Below, piece after piece: positions 4,458 to 50,580 of a stretch of 64,000 nucleotides of DNA. Numbering within the stretch: the first letter of the stretch is position 1; each line of letters begins with the position of its first letter. Location: positions 1,661,501 to 1,725,500 of the forward strand of contig NZ_QURO01000004.1 of the NCBI RefSeq assembly GCF_003426945.1, written 5' to 3'. This DNA comes from Thermus sediminis (GTDB lineage: Bacteria > Deinococcota > Deinococci > Deinococcales > Thermaceae). The notes under the pieces are model-generated. The model worked only from the letters and a program-made list of their open reading frames with translations. It had not been told where the DNA came from and did not search any database. The translations under genes and the position numbers were made by a program.

Positions 4458-5144
4458 CTAGCGCACGTTGCCGGTCTCCAGCTTCCTAGACCTTAGGTCC
4501 AAGAGGCTGTACTCGCCCTCGGAGAGATCCCCGGGGACCACCACCCAGCTGGCCCCCAGCACCTCATGCTTCTGGCCCCGGCCCGCCACGATGGCCAGGA
4601 GGGGGTTGTGGGTCTTGATGAGGTGGGCCACCTCGTGGGAGCCCCTCTCGCCCAGGCCCTTGTGGAAGGGCATGGTGTGGAAGAGGAAGATCTTGGGGTA
4701 GTCCTTGAGCTCCCACAGGGCCTTGAGGTGGTACTCGGCCATCCAGGCGGGGTAGCGGAGGGCCTCCCTCTCCTCGGGCTCGCCTTCGTCCGCGATCTCC
4801 CCGCCGATGCCGGCCACCAGGTAGGGTCCTCTCCAGAAGGTGAAGGTCTCGTGGACGTTACGCATCTCGGGCCGGACCAGTTCGGTGTTGGCGGCTTCCC
4901 GGAGGTATTCCCAAATGGGGGCGTCCTCGGGGCCGGGGATGTAGGCGGTGGGGAGATGGATCTCGGCGAGGAGGCGGAAGAAGGCGGCGTAGTCCCGGCT
5001 CTTGGCGGTCTTGGGCATGAGGTTGCCGACGACCGCCACCGCGTCCGCCCCGGTGTCGGGGGCCACCTTGGCGAACTTCTCCAAGGCCTCCAGGTCCCCC
5101 ATAGGGTTGGAGGTGGCCAGGATGTAGCGAACCGTCCTCCGCAT
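4458..5144 (-). CDS. Metallophosphoesterase-fold protein of the TT1561 type, metal ligands mostly replaced
   Basis: A 228-residue protein closely resembling, from memory, the structurally studied Thermus protein TT1561 of the calcineurin-like phosphoesterase fold. The usual metal motifs are altered: the first DxH region reads TSNPMGD, the GD motif reads VVGNLMP, and the GNHD motif reads IPGPEDAP. His in FLFHTMPFH and GQKHE remain. Phosphoesterase activity is therefore uncertain and a binding role is possible. The gene lies 12 bases after the second hsp20 gene in the clpB-led operon, which suggests a stress role. The start is ATG at 5144, after a GGAGGTGAA ribosome binding site. Confidence 0.85.
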   Translation of the reverse strand: MRRTVRYILATSNPMGDLEALEKFAKVAPDTGADAVAVVGNLMPKTAKSRDYAAFFRLLAEIHLPTAYIPGPEDAPIWEYLREAANTELVRPEMRNVHETFTFWRGPYLVAGIGGEIADEGEPEEREALRYPAWMAEYHLKALWELKDYPKIFLFHTMPFHKGLGERGSHEVAHLIKTHNPLLAIVAGRGQKHEVLGASWVVVPGDLSEGEYSLLDLRSRKLETGNVR

Positions 5145-13408: not shown

Positions 13409-13485
13409 GAGAGTTGAGTCCATCTTTGTCATAGTAGCTTGGGCTACCCAAAGATCCCTTTGGCCGTGTACCTTAGGATAGTGAC

Positions 13486-15360
13486 ATGCCACGGCTTCCC
13501 TTGAACCTCCTGGTGTTCGTCCTGGGCCTCCTCCTTTTGGCCTGGGCCTTTAGCCTGGCGGGGACCACGGCGAGCCCCAGCGGCGCGGTCAACTACACCA
13601 CCTTCCTGGAGGACCTGAAGGCGGGCCGGGTGAAGGAGGTGGTGGTGCACTCTGGGGAGACCCGCATCCAGGGTACCCTCACCGACGGCTCGGGCTTCAC
13701 CACCCACGCGGCCAGCCCCCCGGACAACGCCACCCTCGAGGCCTGGATGCGCAAGGGGGTGAGCGTGCGGGTGGAGCCTCCCCAGACGCAAAACGCCTGG
13801 GGCTTCCTGTGGCCCCTCCTCCTGGTGGGGCTTCTCATCGCAGCCCTCTTCTACTTTTCCCGTTCCGGCCGGGCCGGGTCCTCCGATGGGGCCTTCAACT
13901 TTACCAAGAGCCGGGCCAAGGTCCTCACCGAGGCCCCCAAGGTCACCTTCAAGGACGTGGCCGGAGCCGAGGAGGCCAAGGAGGAGCTCAAGGAGATCGT
14001 GGAGTTCCTCAAAAATCCCAGCCGCTTTCACGAGATGGGGGCCCGGATCCCCAAAGGGGTCCTCCTGGTGGGCCCCCCTGGGGTGGGGAAGACCCACATC
14101 GCCCGGGCAGTGGCCGGGGAGGCCCGGGTGCCCTTCATCACCGCTTCGGGCTCGGACTTCGTGGAGATGTTTGTGGGCGTGGGAGCGGCCAGAGTGCGGG
14201 ACCTCTTTGAGACCGCCAAGCGCCACGCCCCCTGTATCGTCTTCATTGACGAGATCGACGCCGTGGGCAGGCGGCGGGGAGGCGGGGTGGGGGGCGGCAA
14301 CGACGAGCGGGAGCAGACCCTGAACCAACTCCTGGTGGAGATGGACGGCTTTGAGAAGGATTCCACCATTATCGTTATGGCCGCCACCAACCGCCCCGAT
14401 GTCCTGGATCCCGCCCTCCTGCGCCCGGGGCGGTTTGACCGCCAGATAGCCATAGATGCTCCCGACGTGAAGGGCCGGGAGCAGATCCTGAGGATCCACG
14501 CCCGGGGCAAGCCCCTGGCGGAGGACGTGGACCTGGCCCTTCTGGCCAAGCGCACCCCGGGCTTCGTGGGGGCGGACCTGGAGAACCTCCTCAACGAGGC
14601 TGCCCTCCTCGCCGCTCGGGAGGGGCGGAAGAAGATCACCATGAAGGACCTCGAGGAGGCGGCGGACCGGGTGATGATGGGCCCCGCCAAGAAGAGCCTG
14701 GTCCTCACCCAAAGGGACCGCCGGATCACCGCTTATCACGAGGCGGGGCACGCCCTGGCGGCCCACTTCCTGGAGCACGCCGATGGGGTGCACAAGGTCA
14801 CCATCGTCCCTCGGGGCCGGGCCTTGGGCTTCATGATGCCCAGGCGGGAGGACATGCTTCACTGGTCCAAGAAGCGCCTCCTGGACCAGATCGCCGTGGC
14901 TCTGGCTGGGCGGGCCGCCGAGGAGCTCATCTTTGAGGACGTGACCACGGGGGCGGAGAACGACTTCCGCCAGGCCACGGAGTTGGCCCGGCGCATGATC
15001 ACCGAGTGGGGGATGCATCCCGAATTCGGCCCCGTGGCCTACGCCCTCCGGGAGGACACCTACTTGGGCGGGTACGACGTCCGCCAGTACTCCGAGGAGA
15101 CCGCCAAGCGCATCGACGAGGCGGTGCGGCGGCTCATTGAGGAGCAGTACCAGAGGGTTCTGGCCCTTCTTCAGGAAAAGCGGGAGGTCCTGGAGCGGGT
15201 GGCGGAAACCCTCCTGGAGCGGGAGACCCTGACCGCGGAAGAGTTCGGGCGGGTGGCGGAGGGCCTCCCCCTCGAGGCCCCTGGGGAGCCCAAGGAGGAG
15301 AAGGAGGCCCCCCGGGTGGTGCCCAAGATCAAGCCCGGGGGGGCCTTAGGCGGGGCCTAA
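13486..15360 (+). CDS. ftsH: FtsH ATP-dependent membrane zinc metalloprotease
   Basis: A 624-residue protein with two transmembrane segments (residues about 4-22 and 105-123) flanking a small periplasmic domain, then the AAA+ module (Walker [14 protein letters not shown], Walker [16 protein letters not shown] region) and the protease domain with zinc motif HEAGH. FtsH degrades misassembled membrane proteins and some short-lived regulators. AGGA lies 7 bases before ATG 13486. Its location next to dnaK fits a protein-quality-control cluster. The gene ends at a strong GC-rich hairpin. Confidence 0.99.
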
Positions 15361-45415: not shown

Positions 45416-46009
45416 ATGACCGTGAGGGAGTACCAGAAAAGGCGGCGCCGGGACCGGATCTTCCAGGCGGCCATGGCCCTCTTCCGCGAGCGGGGCTTCC
45501 AGGAGACCACGGCCAGCGACATCGCCAAGGCCGCCCACGTTTCCCGGGGCACCTTCTTCAACTACTTCCCCTACAAGGAGGCCGTCCTTTTGGACTACGG
45601 GAGCCTCCTTCTAGCCCGGCTCAGGGAGGAGATACGTGGGCGCCTGGCCCAGGGGATGGACCCTTTGGCCGTCCTTCACTTCCTCTTCCAGGAGGTGGCC
45701 CTGTTCACCGAGGCGGAGAAGGAGCTCTTGCTGCCCCTCTTCTACGAGCTTTTGAACCCCGAGCCCATCCGGGCCAGGGCGGCCTTTGAGGCCCTGCCTC
45801 TTGGGGACCTGATCGCCGAGGTGCTAAGGCCCCTCAAGGAGAAGGGGATGGTGCGGCAGGACCTCTCCCTGGAACGCATGGGCCGGACCTTGGCCGACCT
45901 CTACTTCCTCTCCGCCTTGCGCTGGGCGGCCTACACCCCCCACCGGGACCTGAAGGGGGAGCTGGAGAAGACCCTGGACCTAGCCCTTTTGGGCATCCTG
46001 GCCCGCTAG
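45416..46009 (+). CDS. TetR-family transcriptional regulator
   Basis: A 197-residue protein. The N-terminal helix-turn-helix is [20 protein letters not shown] then [20 protein letters not shown], followed by a helical ligand-binding domain. The ligand is unknown; nearby nitronate monooxygenase and DJ-1-like genes are possible targets. Leaderless start. Its 3' end overlaps the converging uvrA by 4 bases. Confidence 0.95.
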
Positions 46010-48864
46010 TCCGCGGCCACCTTGAGCCTTTCGGCGATCTCGGGGATCCTGGCCAGGAAGACGCCGGTGGGGCTTCCCGTGAGGGCCACCTCCTCCGGGG
46101 TGCCTTCGGCCACGATCTCCCCGCCCCGGTCCCCGCCCTCCGGCCCCAGGTCAATGACCCAGTCCGCGGTCTTCACCACCTCCAGGTTGTGCTCAATGAC
46201 CACCACGGTGTTACCCCCGTCCACCAGGCGGTGGAGGACCGAGAGGAGCTTGGCCACGTCGTCGAAGTGGAGGCCGGTGGTGGGCTCGTCCAGGATGTAG
46301 AGGGTGCGGCCCGTGGACTTGCGCCCTAGCTCCGTGGCCAGCTTGACCCGCTGGGCCTCCCCCCCGGAGAGGGTGGGGGAGGGCTGGCCCAGGCGCATGT
46401 ACCCTAGGCCCACGTCCACCATGAGCTGGAGCTTGCGGGCGATGGTGGGGACGTTCTGGAAGAAGTCCAGGGCCTCCTCCACGGTCATGTCCAGGACGTC
46501 GGCGATGCTCCTGCCCCTAAGCTTCACCTCCAGGGTTTCCCGGTTGTAGCGCCTCCCCTTGCACACCTCGCAGGGCACGTAGAGGTCGGGCAGGAAGAGC
46601 ATCTCGATCTTCACCGTGCCGTCCCCACCGCAGGCCTCGCACCGCCCCCCCTTGACGTTGAAGGAGAACCGGCCCGGGCCGTAGCCCCGCTTCCTGGCCT
46701 CGGGGGTCTTGGCGAAGAGGTCGCGGATCTCGTCAAAGATGCCCGTGTAGGTGGCGGGGTTGGAGCGGGGGGTGCGGCCGATGGGGGACTGGTCGATCTC
46801 GATGACCTTGTCCAGGTGCTCTATTCCCTCCAGGCCCTCGTAGGCCCCAGGGGTGGTCTTGGCCCGCATGAGCCTCTGGGCCAGGGCGGCGTAGAGGATG
46901 TCGTGGATGAGGGTGCTCTTGCCCGAGCCCGAGGGTCCGGTGACCGCCACGAAGCGGCCCAGGGGGATGCGCAGGGTGATCCCCTTGAGGTTATGCTCCC
47001 TAGCCCCTTTGAGCACCAGCCACTTGCCGTTTCCCTTGCGGCGCTCCTTGGGCACGGGGATCCGCTTCTCCCCCCTCAGATAGGCCCCGGTGAGGCTCAT
47101 TGGGTTTCGCAGGATGGCCTCGAGGGGGCCCTCGGCCACCACCTCCCCCCCGTGGATCCCCGCCCCCGGGCCCATGTCCACGATCCAGTCCGCGGCCCGC
47201 ATGGTCTCCTCGTCGTGCTCCACCACGATCAGGGTGTTGCCCAGGGCCTGGAGGCGCTTGAGGGTGGCGATGAGGCGCTGGTTGTCCCGGGGGTGGAGGC
47301 CGATGCTGGGCTCGTCCAGGACGTAGAGGACCCCGGTGAGGCCCGAGCCCACCTGGGTGGCCAGGCGGATCCTTTGGGCCTCGCCCCCGGAGAGGGTGTT
47401 GGCGGCCCGGTCCAGGGTGAGGTAGTCCAGGCCCACCCCCACCAGGAACCCCAGGCGCTCCACGATCTCCCGCAGGATGGGCTGGGCGATCCTGGCCTGG
47501 AAGGGGGGGAGCTTTTCCCCAAGGTCCTGGAAGAAGGCCAGGGCGTCCCGCACCGTGAGGGCGGAGACCTCGGCGATGTTCCTCCCCGCCACCCTCACCG
47601 AGAGCACCTCCCTCCTGTACCGGGTTCCCCCGCACGCGGGGCAGGGCTTCGTGGCCATGAAGCCCTCGAGGACCTCCCGCACCCCCTCGGAGTCCGCCTC
47701 CCCATAGCGCTTCTCCAGCCAGGGGATGACCCCCTCGTAGTGGACCTCTACCCGGAAGGTCTCCTTACCCCCGCGGCGGAAGACCACCTGGAAGGGCTCG
47801 GGGAGGCCGTAAAGCACCGCCTGCCTCGCCTCCTCCGGCAGATCCTTGAAGGGGGTCCTGAGGTCAAAGGAGAGGTGCTCTGCCAAAGCCCGTAGGCGGT
47901 CCCAGAGGTAGCTCCGGCCCGTGTCCCGCCCCCGGGCCCAGGGGAGGATGGCCCCCTCGGCCAGGGAGAGCTCGGGGTTCACCACCAAGGCGGGGTCAAA
48001 CTCCTGCTTGTACCCAAGCCCCGAGCAGGCGGGGCAGGCCCCGTAGGGGGCGTTGAAGGAGAAGATCCGGGGCTCAAGCTCCTCCAGCACAGAGCCGTGC
48101 TCGGGGCAGGCGAACTTCTCTGAGTAAAGGGCCTCCTCCCCCAGGTCGGGGTAGAGGACCCGCAGGAGGCCCTCCCCCCGGAGGAGGGCGAGCTCCACGG
48201 CCTCGGCGATGCGGGGGCGCTCCTCTTCCTTGAGGACCACCCGGTCCACCACCAGGTCGATGTCGTGTTTCTCGTATTTCTCCAGGTTGAGGTTCTGGGC
48301 CTCCTCCAGGAGGTAGATGACCCCGTCCACCCGCACCCGGGCGTACCCCTCCTTCAGGAGCTGCTGGAAGAGCTTGCGGTACTCCCCCTTCCTGCCCCGG
48401 ACCAGGGGGGCCATGAGGACGGCCCGGGTGCCAGGGGGCTTCTGGAGGAGGCGGTCGGCGATCTCGCTGGCGGACTGCTTCTCAATGGGACGGCCGCACT
48501 CGGGGCAGTGGGCGGTGCCCACCCGGGCGAAGAGGAGGCGGAGGTAGTCGTGGATCTCCGTGACCGTGCCCACGGTGGAGCGGGGGTTGTGGCTCGTGGT
48601 CTTCTGGTCAATGGAGATGGCGGGGGAGAGGCCCTCAATGCTCTCCACCTCGGGCTTGTCCATCACCCCCAGGAACTGGCGGGCGTAGCTGGAGAGGCTT
48701 TCCACATAGCGCCTCTGCCCCTCGGCGTAGATGGTGTCAAAGGCCAGGGTGCTCTTCCCCGAGCCCGAGACCCCGGTGATGACGATGAACTTGCCCCGGG
48801 GGAGCTCGAGGCTGATGTTCTTCAGGTTGTGCTCCCGCGCCCCCCGGATGACGATGCGGTCCAT
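46006..48864 (-). CDS. uvrA: UvrA, excinuclease ABC subunit A
   Basis: A 952-residue ABC ATPase with two ATPase modules: Walker [20 protein letters not shown] and [20 protein letters not shown] signatures [19 protein letters not shown] and [16 protein letters not shown], and CxxC zinc modules ([26 protein letters not shown] with CEVCKGRRY). It recognises bulky DNA lesions and loads UvrB in nucleotide excision repair. TATACT 7 bases before ATG 48864 indicates a leaderless transcript. Confidence 0.99.
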
Positions 48865-48904: not shown

Positions 48905-49303
48905 CTAGAGGCGGAGGTGGATCAGGGGTACGGGAAGGCCTGGGACCCGGGCCAAGGGGCCGCTTGCGGTGAGGATGGGGGCGGCAAGCTTCTGGGCCAA
49001 GGCCGCGTAGAGGGCCTCGTAGGCGGAGAGGCGATCCCTTAGGGCAAAGGCGGGTAGGAGGAGGGGCCTGTGGTCCACCCGGATGAGGGGCCAGCTGGAG
49101 AGGTCCTCCAAGGCTTCCTGGGCCCGCTTTGGGGAAAGGCGGCCAGAGAGGATCGCCCTGTGGAGCACGGCCAACACCTCGGCGTCCAGGAGGGCTGGGG
49201 CGAAGAGGCTCTTTCCCTCCACCAGGGCAGCCACCTGTTGGCCCAAAGGGGTGCGGAGGAGGTACTCCGCCGCGGCGGAGGCGTCTAGGACGAGGCGGTC
49301 CAC
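48905..49303 (-). CDS. vapC: PIN-domain toxin of the second VapBC module
   Basis: About 132 residues from GTG 49303: LVLDASAAAEYLLRTPLG (first metal aspartate and the following glutamate), FAPALLDAEVLAVLHRAILS and LRDRLSAYEALYAALAQKLA, then a shortened C-terminal strand. The third acidic position reads YEALYAALA rather than the usual Y-D-A pattern. The predicted RNA target is unknown. It overlaps the antitoxin end by 19 bases. Confidence 0.88.
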   Translation of the reverse strand: MDRLVLDASAAAEYLLRTPLGQQVAALVEGKSLFAPALLDAEVLAVLHRAILSGRLSPKRAQEALEDLSSWPLIRVDHRPLLLPAFALRDRLSAYEALYAALAQKLAAPILTASGPLARVPGLPVPLIHLRL

Positions 49304-49518
49304 TTCCCCTCCTGGGCCTCTTCTAGAAGCCTGGCGGCGGGGAGGCCCAGGTCCACGGGGGACCTTTTGGAGAGGCGTTCCTGCCACTCGGACCACTCCA
49401 GCTCCCGTTCCAGGGCCTTTAGGACAAACTCACTCAGGGTCAGGCCTCTAGCCCGGGCCTGGCGCAAGAGGCGGGCCTTGAGCTCGTCGGGCACCTTCTT
49501 CACCTGAAGGGTGCTCAT
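49285..49518 (-). CDS. vapB: Ribbon-helix-helix antitoxin of the second VapBC module
   Basis: A 77-residue protein: TLQVKKVPDELKARLLRQAR then ARGLTLSEFVLKALEREL is a FitA/VapB-like ribbon-helix-helix domain; the tail contains WSEWQERLSKRSPVDLG. TAAAAT lies 6 bases before ATG 49518 and overlaps the palindrome TTTAGCATGCTAAA, the likely self-operator. Confidence 0.9.
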   Translation of the reverse strand: MSTLQVKKVPDELKARLLRQARARGLTLSEFVLKALERELEWSEWQERLSKRSPVDLGLPAARLLEEAQEGKWTASS

Positions 49519-49524
49519 GGCATG

Positions 49525-49542
49525 ATTTTAGCATGCTAAACT
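49525..49542. promoter_or_regulatory. Shared palindromic operator between divergent vapBC and SIS isomerase promoters
   Basis: TTTAGCATGCTAAA (49527-49540) is a perfect 14-base palindrome. Its left end forms the -10 box TAAAAT of the antitoxin on the minus strand (49530-49525), its right end forms TAAACT (49537-49542) for the plus-strand gene. Each box is 6 bases from the respective ATG. Confidence 0.78.
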
Positions 49543-49548
49543 TTGAGT

Positions 49549-50580
49549 ATGGCCTCCTGGATGCTGCGGGAAGCGGAGGAAGCCCCTAAGGTGGTGGAGC
49601 GGCTTCTCAAAGAGAACGAGGCCGAGGTGCGCGGCCTCGCCGCCTTCCTGCGGCGAAGACCCCCCGCTCTGGTCCTCACGGTGGCCCGGGGGAGCTCGGA
49701 CCACGCGGCCCTCTACGCCAAGTACCTCCTGGAGACCCGCCTCCTGTGGCCCGTCCTCTCCTTGGCCCCCTCCGTCCTCACCCTCTACGGGGCGAGGCCC
49801 AGGGTCCCTTGGCCTAGCCTCCTCCTGGCCTATAGCCAAAGCGGGGAGAGCCCGGACGTGGTGGAGACCGTGCGGGCCTACCGAGGGGCGGGGGTCCTCA
49901 CCGTGGCCCTGGTGAACCAGGAGGAAAGCCCCTTGGCCCAGGCGGCGGAGGTGGTCCTCCCCCTCCACGCCGGGGAGGAGCAGGCCGTGGCCGCCACCAA
50001 GAGCTTCCTGGCCATGCTGGCCGCCACGGTCCACCTCCTTGCCCACCTCCTGGAGGAGCCCGCTTTGAGGGAGACCCTCCCCGCTCTCCCCGAGGCCATG
50101 GGCCGGGCCCTGGGGGCCGAGGGGAGCCTCGAGGACCTGGTGGAGGCGGAAAACCTCTTCGTCCTGGGCCGGGGCCTCGTCTTTCCCATGGCCCTCGAGG
50201 CCGCTCTAAAGCTCAAGGAGGTGGCGGGCCTCCACGCCGAGGGGCTTTCGGCCGCCGAGTTCCTCCACGGGCCCAAGGCCCTTTTGGAGGCGGGCTTCCC
50301 CCTTTTGGCCCTGGTCCAAAGGGATCAGGCCCTGGAGGCCACGCTGAGGACCCTCGAGGCCCTGAAGGCCACGGGGGCCCACCTCCTTGTCCTCTCCCCC
50401 GAGCCGGAGGCCCTGGACCTGGCGGACGTACCCTTGCGCCTTCCCCTGGCCCTTTCTCCCGAGCTCACCTCCCTGCTCCTGGCCCAAGCCTTCTACCCCA
50501 TGGCCGAGGCCCTGGCCTGGGCCCGGGGCCTGGACCCGGACCGGCCCCGCCACCTCTCCAAGGTGACCCGCACCCGCTAA
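49549..50580 (+). CDS. SIS-domain sugar-phosphate isomerase/deaminase (GlmS isomerase-like)
   Basis: A 344-residue protein with two SIS domains: VLTVARGSSDHAALYAKYLL, LLLAYSQSGESPDVVETVRA, AATKSFLAMLAATVHLLAH, and FVLGRGLVFPMALEAALKLK followed by EVAGLHAEGLSAAEFLHGPK. This is the isomerase half of GlmS without the glutaminase, as in NagB-II/AgaS-type enzymes acting on glucosamine-6-P or related sugars. The start at ATG 49549 is set by TAAACT 6 bases upstream. It shares a palindrome with the vapBC module. Confidence 0.9.
   Translation: MASWMLREAEEAPKVVERLLKENEAEVRGLAAFLRRRPPALVLTVARGSSDHAALYAKYLLETRLLWPVLSLAPSVLTLYGARPRVPWPSLLLAYSQSGESPDVVETVRAYRGAGVLTVALVNQEESPLAQAAEVVLPLHAGEEQAVAATKSFLAMLAATVHLLAHLLEEPALRETLPALPEAMGRALGAEGSLEDLVEAENLFVLGRGLVFPMALEAALKLKEVAGLHAEGLSAAEFLHGPKALLEAGFPLLALVQRDQALEATLRTLEALKATGAHLLVLSPEPEALDLADVPLRLPLALSPELTSLLLAQAFYPMAEALAWARGLDPDRPRHLSKVTRTR

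Follow-up and report, generated by a model that had tools for sequence, protein, structure and literature searches.

A conserved CATG-pair element next to a NagB-II-like gene of Thermus sediminis as the likely auto-operator of a VapBC/FitAB-type module

The short region between a toxin-antitoxin module and a divergently oriented isomerase gene of Thermus sediminis is best explained as the auto-operator of the module. In the window, i.e. the whole stretch of 64,000 nucleotides that was analysed, a module of the VapBC/FitAB type lies between uvrA and a NagB-II-like gene. We consider it likely that RHH dimers of the antitoxin bind a pair of CATG words in this region, and that the promoter of the isomerase gene is independent of the module but abuts its operator. 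The features are collected in Table 1.

Table 1. Features of the region, in coordinates of the window.
Feature	Coordinates	Strand	Basis or remark
uvrA	46006..48864	-	ORF, named by reading; divergent from the isomerase gene in module-free genomes
VapC/FitB-like PIN-domain toxin, 132 aa, GTG start	48905..49303	-	PF01850, E 1.3e-8
RHH antitoxin, 77 aa, FitA-like, beta-strand STLQVKKVP	49285..49518	-	PF22513
Predicted antitoxin operator GGCATGATTTTAGCATGC	49519..49536	none	conservation in 6/6 module loci
Predicted antitoxin -10 box TAAAAT	49525..49530	-	6 nt before ATG, between the half-sites; TA[A/C]AAT in 6/6 loci
Palindrome TTTAGCATGCTAAA	49527..49540	none	sequence; exact in 2/6 module-bearing loci
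Predicted isomerase -10 box TAAACT	49537..49542	+	6 nt before ATG at 49549
SIS-domain sugar-phosphate isomerase/deaminase, NagB-II-like, 343 aa	49549..50580	+	NF046059, PDB

A sequence-only reading of this DNA had proposed a toxin-antitoxin module, and the module proved to be real: an RHH antitoxin gene is situated directly upstream of a PIN toxin gene and their ends overlap, which is the arrangement of VapBC and FitAB systems. The toxin start precedes the antitoxin end by 19 nt in T. sediminis (G000), G005 and G016, and by 4 nt in G025 and G009. Scored against PF22513, the window antitoxin reached 23.0 bits, below the cut-off of 27 bits, and its orthologue from G005 reached 29.8 bits, above it; in a plasmid collection the window antitoxin had no match at E 0.01. 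With regard to the toxin, we took the PIN quartet of four acidic residues to correspond to D7, E42 and positions 96 and 114. D7 and E42 are kept in the window toxin, while E96 and S114 replace D, and its activity is therefore in doubt; the protein is perhaps impaired. The other five module copies retain all four acidic residues. The frame of the window toxin is intact and 87% identical to that of G005 over 129 residues. More distant VapC relatives, at five loci, occur with other antitoxin types, lack spaced CATG words and have the same conserved D residues.

The product of the divergent gene had been called GlmS-like, a label that does not suit it. The best-scoring model was that of NagB-II, NF046059 (E 6.3e-86; 288.7 bits, below the equivalog cut-off of 430), whereas the GlmS model TIGR01135 aligned to positions 251-602 only, with 186.5 bits against 418.05, and a glutaminase domain is absent from the protein. 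Among PDB entries, 8eol/3hba matched with E 1.7e-64; 8eol, a glucosamine-6-phosphate deaminase, is the closest named enzyme, and 7kqa, which carries an unrelated name, matched slightly better than 8eol. Elsewhere in the genome a separate open frame of 633 codons shows 36% identity to the isomerase, as expected of a GlmS. The enzyme looks like NagB-II, by which we claim only that it would work like one. In the two deepest-branching members of the genus (G017, locus L027, 1498-2412; G026, locus L028) the orthologue is about 60% identical and ends early, and in the former the S-x-S-G-E-S and G-S-S-D stretches are lost; these two orthologues may no longer be enzymes.

The two genes are separated by two -10 boxes of the leaderless type placed back to back, and in this respect the earlier reading is supported by the sequence, with both promoters being predicted ones. 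On the minus strand the antitoxin ATG occupies 49518-49516, 6 nt past TAAAAT. The GCATGC core of the palindrome puts TGC directly before each box, so that either one would be an extended -10 (TGn). No TTGACA/TATAAT pair scored in the region at the threshold used for a sigma-70 consensus -35/-10, and both promoters would therefore be -10-driven. A TANNNT some 12 bp ahead of the start codon is described as a recognised sign of leaderless genes that is common in Deinococcus-Thermus, applying to 35.9-46.1% of genes in five of five genomes (PMC3160421); the putative promoters of the window have the same -10 distance and are ordinary for the phylum. By a crude count that includes spurious ORFs, TANNNT stands ahead of the start in 15 of the 111 window ORFs of at least 150 codons. 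Divergent pairs, scored as CAT-N5-7-ANNNTA ... TANNNT-N5-7-ATG/GTG, number two in the window, where 0.01 would be expected. The second such pair is found at 13421-13488, with its boxes wider apart.

Attention had been drawn to this region by the perfect 14-bp palindrome TTTAGCATGCTAAA, said to contribute bases to both -10 boxes, each 6 bases from an ATG, and this anatomy was confirmed in the sequence (49516-49551 reads CATGGCATGATTTTAGCATGCTAAACTTTGAGTATG). Perfect palindromes of 14 bp are as a class nothing special in the window, which holds 10 against 9.94 expected from 100 first-order Markov simulations. The A+T-rich word TTTAGCATGCTAAA itself never arose in these simulations, and the T. 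sediminis genome (2,160,271 bases) has no other copy of it within 2 mismatches. The expectation that the palindrome would be conserved where both genes occur failed, as it is exact in just two of the six module-bearing loci (G000 and G016), and as a conserved unit it was rejected. To the right of the element described below, the loci read TAAACT, TAAGCT, TAAAGT, TACTAT, GGGTAGAAT and GAATAGAAT; this right flank is only the isomerase -10 box, placed 0 or 3 bp off. In part, then, the palindrome is a coincidence: a short, strongly conserved site overlaps TTTAGCATGCTAAA, and the outer half-site of that site together with the two flanking -10 boxes would appear mirror-like in only some of the species.

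The conserved site is GGCATGATTKTAGCATGC, kept in six of six module-bearing loci, with CATG half-sites at 49521-49524 and 49532-49535 that are 11 bp apart and have the antitoxin -10 box between them. In all six, GGCATGATT[T/G]TAGCATGC is the sequence of the 18 bp that precede the antitoxin start. Invariant positions thus number 17 of 18 in the element (six loci) versus 23 of 72 among third codon positions of the five intact antitoxin genes; the corresponding binomial value, 4.7e-8, serves as a guide only, since the loci are related and the block was picked for looking conserved. The 6 nt from the antitoxin -10 box to the start are CATGCC in every locus; the corresponding nucleotides of the isomerase gene differ in each of the six, and a promoter alone therefore does not explain the conserved block.

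The exact 18-mer was found in six of the 27 genomes of the genus, always at the locus adjoining the isomerase gene. Its 17-bp core, searched on the antitoxin strand with 0-1 mismatch, was found in seven of 111 genomes of the phylum at eight places, each directly before an antitoxin relative: six are the Thermus loci, and the other two overlap each other in G095, a member of another family. In G095 the core precedes an antitoxin that is 49% identical and has neither an isomerase nor a PIN gene alongside. A purB-like gene, so called after inspection of the ORFs, lies upstream and points the same way; four CATG words, at 4648, 4659, 4670 and 4681 of locus L119, keep an exact 11-bp register. In L119 (3559-4645) the antitoxin relative is convergent to a HEPN/nucleotidyltransferase-like pair, likewise named from ORFs, and no PIN toxin follows it. 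Since the element also stands before a relative of the antitoxin in the absence of a neighbouring isomerase gene, it travels with the antitoxin, and 49519-49536 is most likely the auto-operator of the antitoxin, a site that very probably lets the toxin-antitoxin pair switch itself off. The idea that the antitoxin binds here was probably a correct instinct attached to the wrong element: a conserved site does overlap the antitoxin promoter and touch that of the isomerase, but it is this element and not the palindrome. The pattern GCATG-N6-GCATG occurs at two further places in the T. sediminis genome. One of them, GCATGATGGGGGCATG (C4:1491974-1491989; about position 1500 of L042), finishes at what may be the start codon of an ORF resembling threonine dehydratase and is possibly a second antitoxin site, or chance; the other lies within or between ORFs of uncertain reading.

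All 27 genomes of the genus have the isomerase gene, and in six of them (G000, G005, G009, G016, G020 and G025) the antitoxin gene is present at its locus; the other 21 have the isomerase gene without the module. The distance from the start of uvrA (named by reading the ORF) to that of the isomerase gene is 58-139 bp in 19 of the 21 module-free genomes and 681-690 bp in the six with the module, which occupies the gap between the two genes; in the remaining two module-free genomes (G006 and G010) no uvrA start was found upstream of the isomerase gene. A TANNNT stands 6-7 nt before the isomerase start in 27 of 27 genomes (for G020 we placed this start by eye, at one base from that of the script). 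As this box is there with or without the module, the isomerase promoter appears independent of it. In the module-bearing loci the isomerase -10 box begins 0-3 bp past the operator, and the spacing from operator to isomerase start is 12 bp in four loci and 15 bp in two. The extended -10 TGC of the isomerase is drawn from the operator in four of the six; in G025 and G009 the box is a separate TAGAAT 3 bp off, the identical hexamer to that of module-free G013.

On the isomerase tree, presence and absence of the module required four changes, a number as low as in 26 of 500 shuffles, and the starred branches force only one. A single origin of the module was not upheld, and these figures do not separate gain, loss and transfer. 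A scan of the genome contigs for related loci returned only two, apparently those of G020 and G009 again. On contig 113 of G020 (L026, L029), a draft that is 65% complete, the antitoxin and isomerase genes are both frameshifted, likely through sequencing errors. The general link between the module and amino-sugar metabolism that had been suggested is unlikely, given that 21 of the 27 genomes keep the isomerase gene and its own -10 box without the module, and it is further undercut by the operator before an antitoxin relative with no isomerase gene alongside.

From the observed anatomy, conservation and co-occurrence we infer a course of binding, repression, leaderless starts and effect on the isomerase as follows. 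RHH dimers of the antitoxin, probably as an antitoxin-toxin complex, would bind the two CATG words of GGCATGATTKTAGCATGC, whose spacing of 11 bp is about one helical turn. Since the half-sites flank the antitoxin -10 box, occupancy should block the leaderless antitoxin-toxin transcript, which would be ordinary autoregulation. The isomerase would have its own leaderless-type promoter, with a -10 box 0-3 bp past the outer half-site. In the window the operator covers positions -30 to -13 with respect to the isomerase start (-33 to -16 in G025 and G009), and a bound repressor should hence hinder the polymerase at this promoter too. Two polymerases would in addition compete, joint binding being hardly feasible. 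Repression of both promoters is plausible. The coupling looks like a by-product of the position of the module and not like a maintained metabolic link, because the loci differ in spacing and 21 of the 27 genomes lack the arrangement.

How far the isomerase would be affected is the point on which a passive overlap of promoters competes with this mechanism. The two -10 boxes may simply be adjacent in a compact genome, with antitoxin occupancy barely affecting the isomerase, and we give this reading a substantial chance, if somewhat less than an even one. It agrees with an isomerase promoter anatomy that is alike with or without the module, with an operator-to-start spacing that is not fixed and with the short uvrA-isomerase distances that are usual in 19 module-free genomes; moreover, the basal activity of five tested bidirectional promoters of E. 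coli is described as too low for competition (PMC12825309). It fits less well with the position of the operator, where a bound repressor should interfere with the isomerase promoter, and with the four loci in which the operator supplies the extended -10 TGC of the isomerase. That the palindrome is a shared operator that serves to make isomerase expression depend on the toxin-antitoxin state seems highly improbable. The exactness of TTTAGCATGCTAAA in the window and G016, its uniqueness in the genome and its contact with both -10 boxes speak for such a role, but few loci with both genes have it exact, the conserved element is shifted to the left and occurs without the isomerase gene, and most genomes have the isomerase gene without the module.

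We also regard as improbable that the conserved block is just the extended -10 promoter of the antitoxin and no protein-binding operator. A TGC-TA[AC]AAT is indeed present in the block 6 nt before the start codon, but the 6 nt after the box vary no more than the box does, and for this the promoter-only reading was rejected; furthermore, the pair of CATG words at 11 bp recurs before distant Q-type antitoxins in other families, and promoters need no such pair. A decaying module, of which the antitoxin survives as a local repressor, would be compatible with the auto-operator explanation, and for the window we consider it possible but doubtful. Residues 96 and 114, E and S here and D in all five other module copies, point in this direction, as does the antitoxin relative of G095, which has the operator and no PIN gene after it. 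On the other hand, the toxin frame is intact and as similar to that of G005 as stated above, E for D is a conservative exchange, and not every PIN domain keeps a strict fourth acidic position.

The CATG pair appears to be associated with a glutamine on the antitoxin beta-strand. Among distinct scored loci, CATG-N7-CATG was present within 70 bp upstream for nine of ten Q-type antitoxins (strands STLQVK, ANLQVK and IQIRNVP; eight of the nine by script and L105 by eye) and for none of 26 of the T, I or H types, a rule that emerged largely from the data on which it was then counted. The Q-type antitoxin without a spaced CATG pair is that of L092. Many of the T/I/H-type loci show upstream words of the TATCA type, which we take to be the FitA half-site; the window has no word of the loose pattern set for such half-sites, and of the nine Q-type loci with a CATG pair only L105 matches one as well. 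One of the scans gave 32 places, of which 30 were used as loci. Rows dropped from the count were L026 (frameshifted draft gene, operator present), L144 (no start), and L146 and L147, which are the same places as L092 and L106. Also left out were L095 (Q in the strand, CATG pair 11 bp apart by eye), L093, L094 and L097 (no such pair), L096, L098, L099 and L101 (hit unusable), and L108 (same letters as L105). A later case, a match of a Q-type relative in the plasmid collection, is a T-type antitoxin on a Tsukamurella plasmid without spaced CATG words, which agrees with the association as one case only. The conserved Q may contact DNA. As a tentative and rather unlikely extension, an RHH branch might read CATG at 11-bp spacing via this glutamine and, in a few Thermus species, such an antitoxin (in the window, with a weakened toxin) might, by abutting the promoter of the NagB-II-like gene, repress this gene as well as its own operon.

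The system is of a known kind. FitA-FitB is described as binding DNA through the RHH fold; the toxin stabilises the complex, and four heterodimers assemble on a 36-bp operator segment (PMC3920265). The window module shares with FitAB and RHH-type VapBC an RHH antitoxin gene that precedes a PIN toxin gene and overlaps it, and a predicted auto-operator over the antitoxin promoter. It differs by CATG words 11 bp apart instead of the TATCA-type words before many T/I-strand FitA-like antitoxins, by a toxin without two of the acidic residues and by transcripts that look leaderless. An operator repeat over the module's own -10 box is also found in RelBE and Kis-Kid; however, these are other toxin-antitoxin families with other repeat layouts, and the sections of the source that concern them describe no sharing with a divergent gene (PMC3920265). 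Bidirectional promoters (Warman, Grainger) are likewise symmetric, with the polymerase seatable either way and mutual exclusion, but share one -10 box and have starts mostly 18, also 10 or 23, bp apart (PMC12825309), whereas the window has two separate boxes and predicted starts at 49518 and 49549, 31 bp apart. A toxin-antitoxin pair that has an inactive toxin and regulates other promoters is described in MtvTA of the Pseudomonas aeruginosa plasmid pPAD8 (PMC11826091); its targets differ, and for the window, regulation of anything outside the module is a prediction. Work on Thermus VapBC has dealt with two megaplasmid modules (PMC10085754), and in the literature covered, mostly other than subscription papers, we found no paper on the uvrA-isomerase toxin-antitoxin locus.

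An eye-catching palindrome is hereby replaced by a defined, testable operator, and the comparison of loci with and without the module separates this operator from the adjoining promoter parts. Coupling to the isomerase is possible and probably incidental; if the isomerase is repressed too, this would be a toxin-antitoxin module capturing its neighbour's promoter by position. If the association between Q and CATG holds, the operators of many uncharacterised RHH antitoxins would be predictable from sequence.
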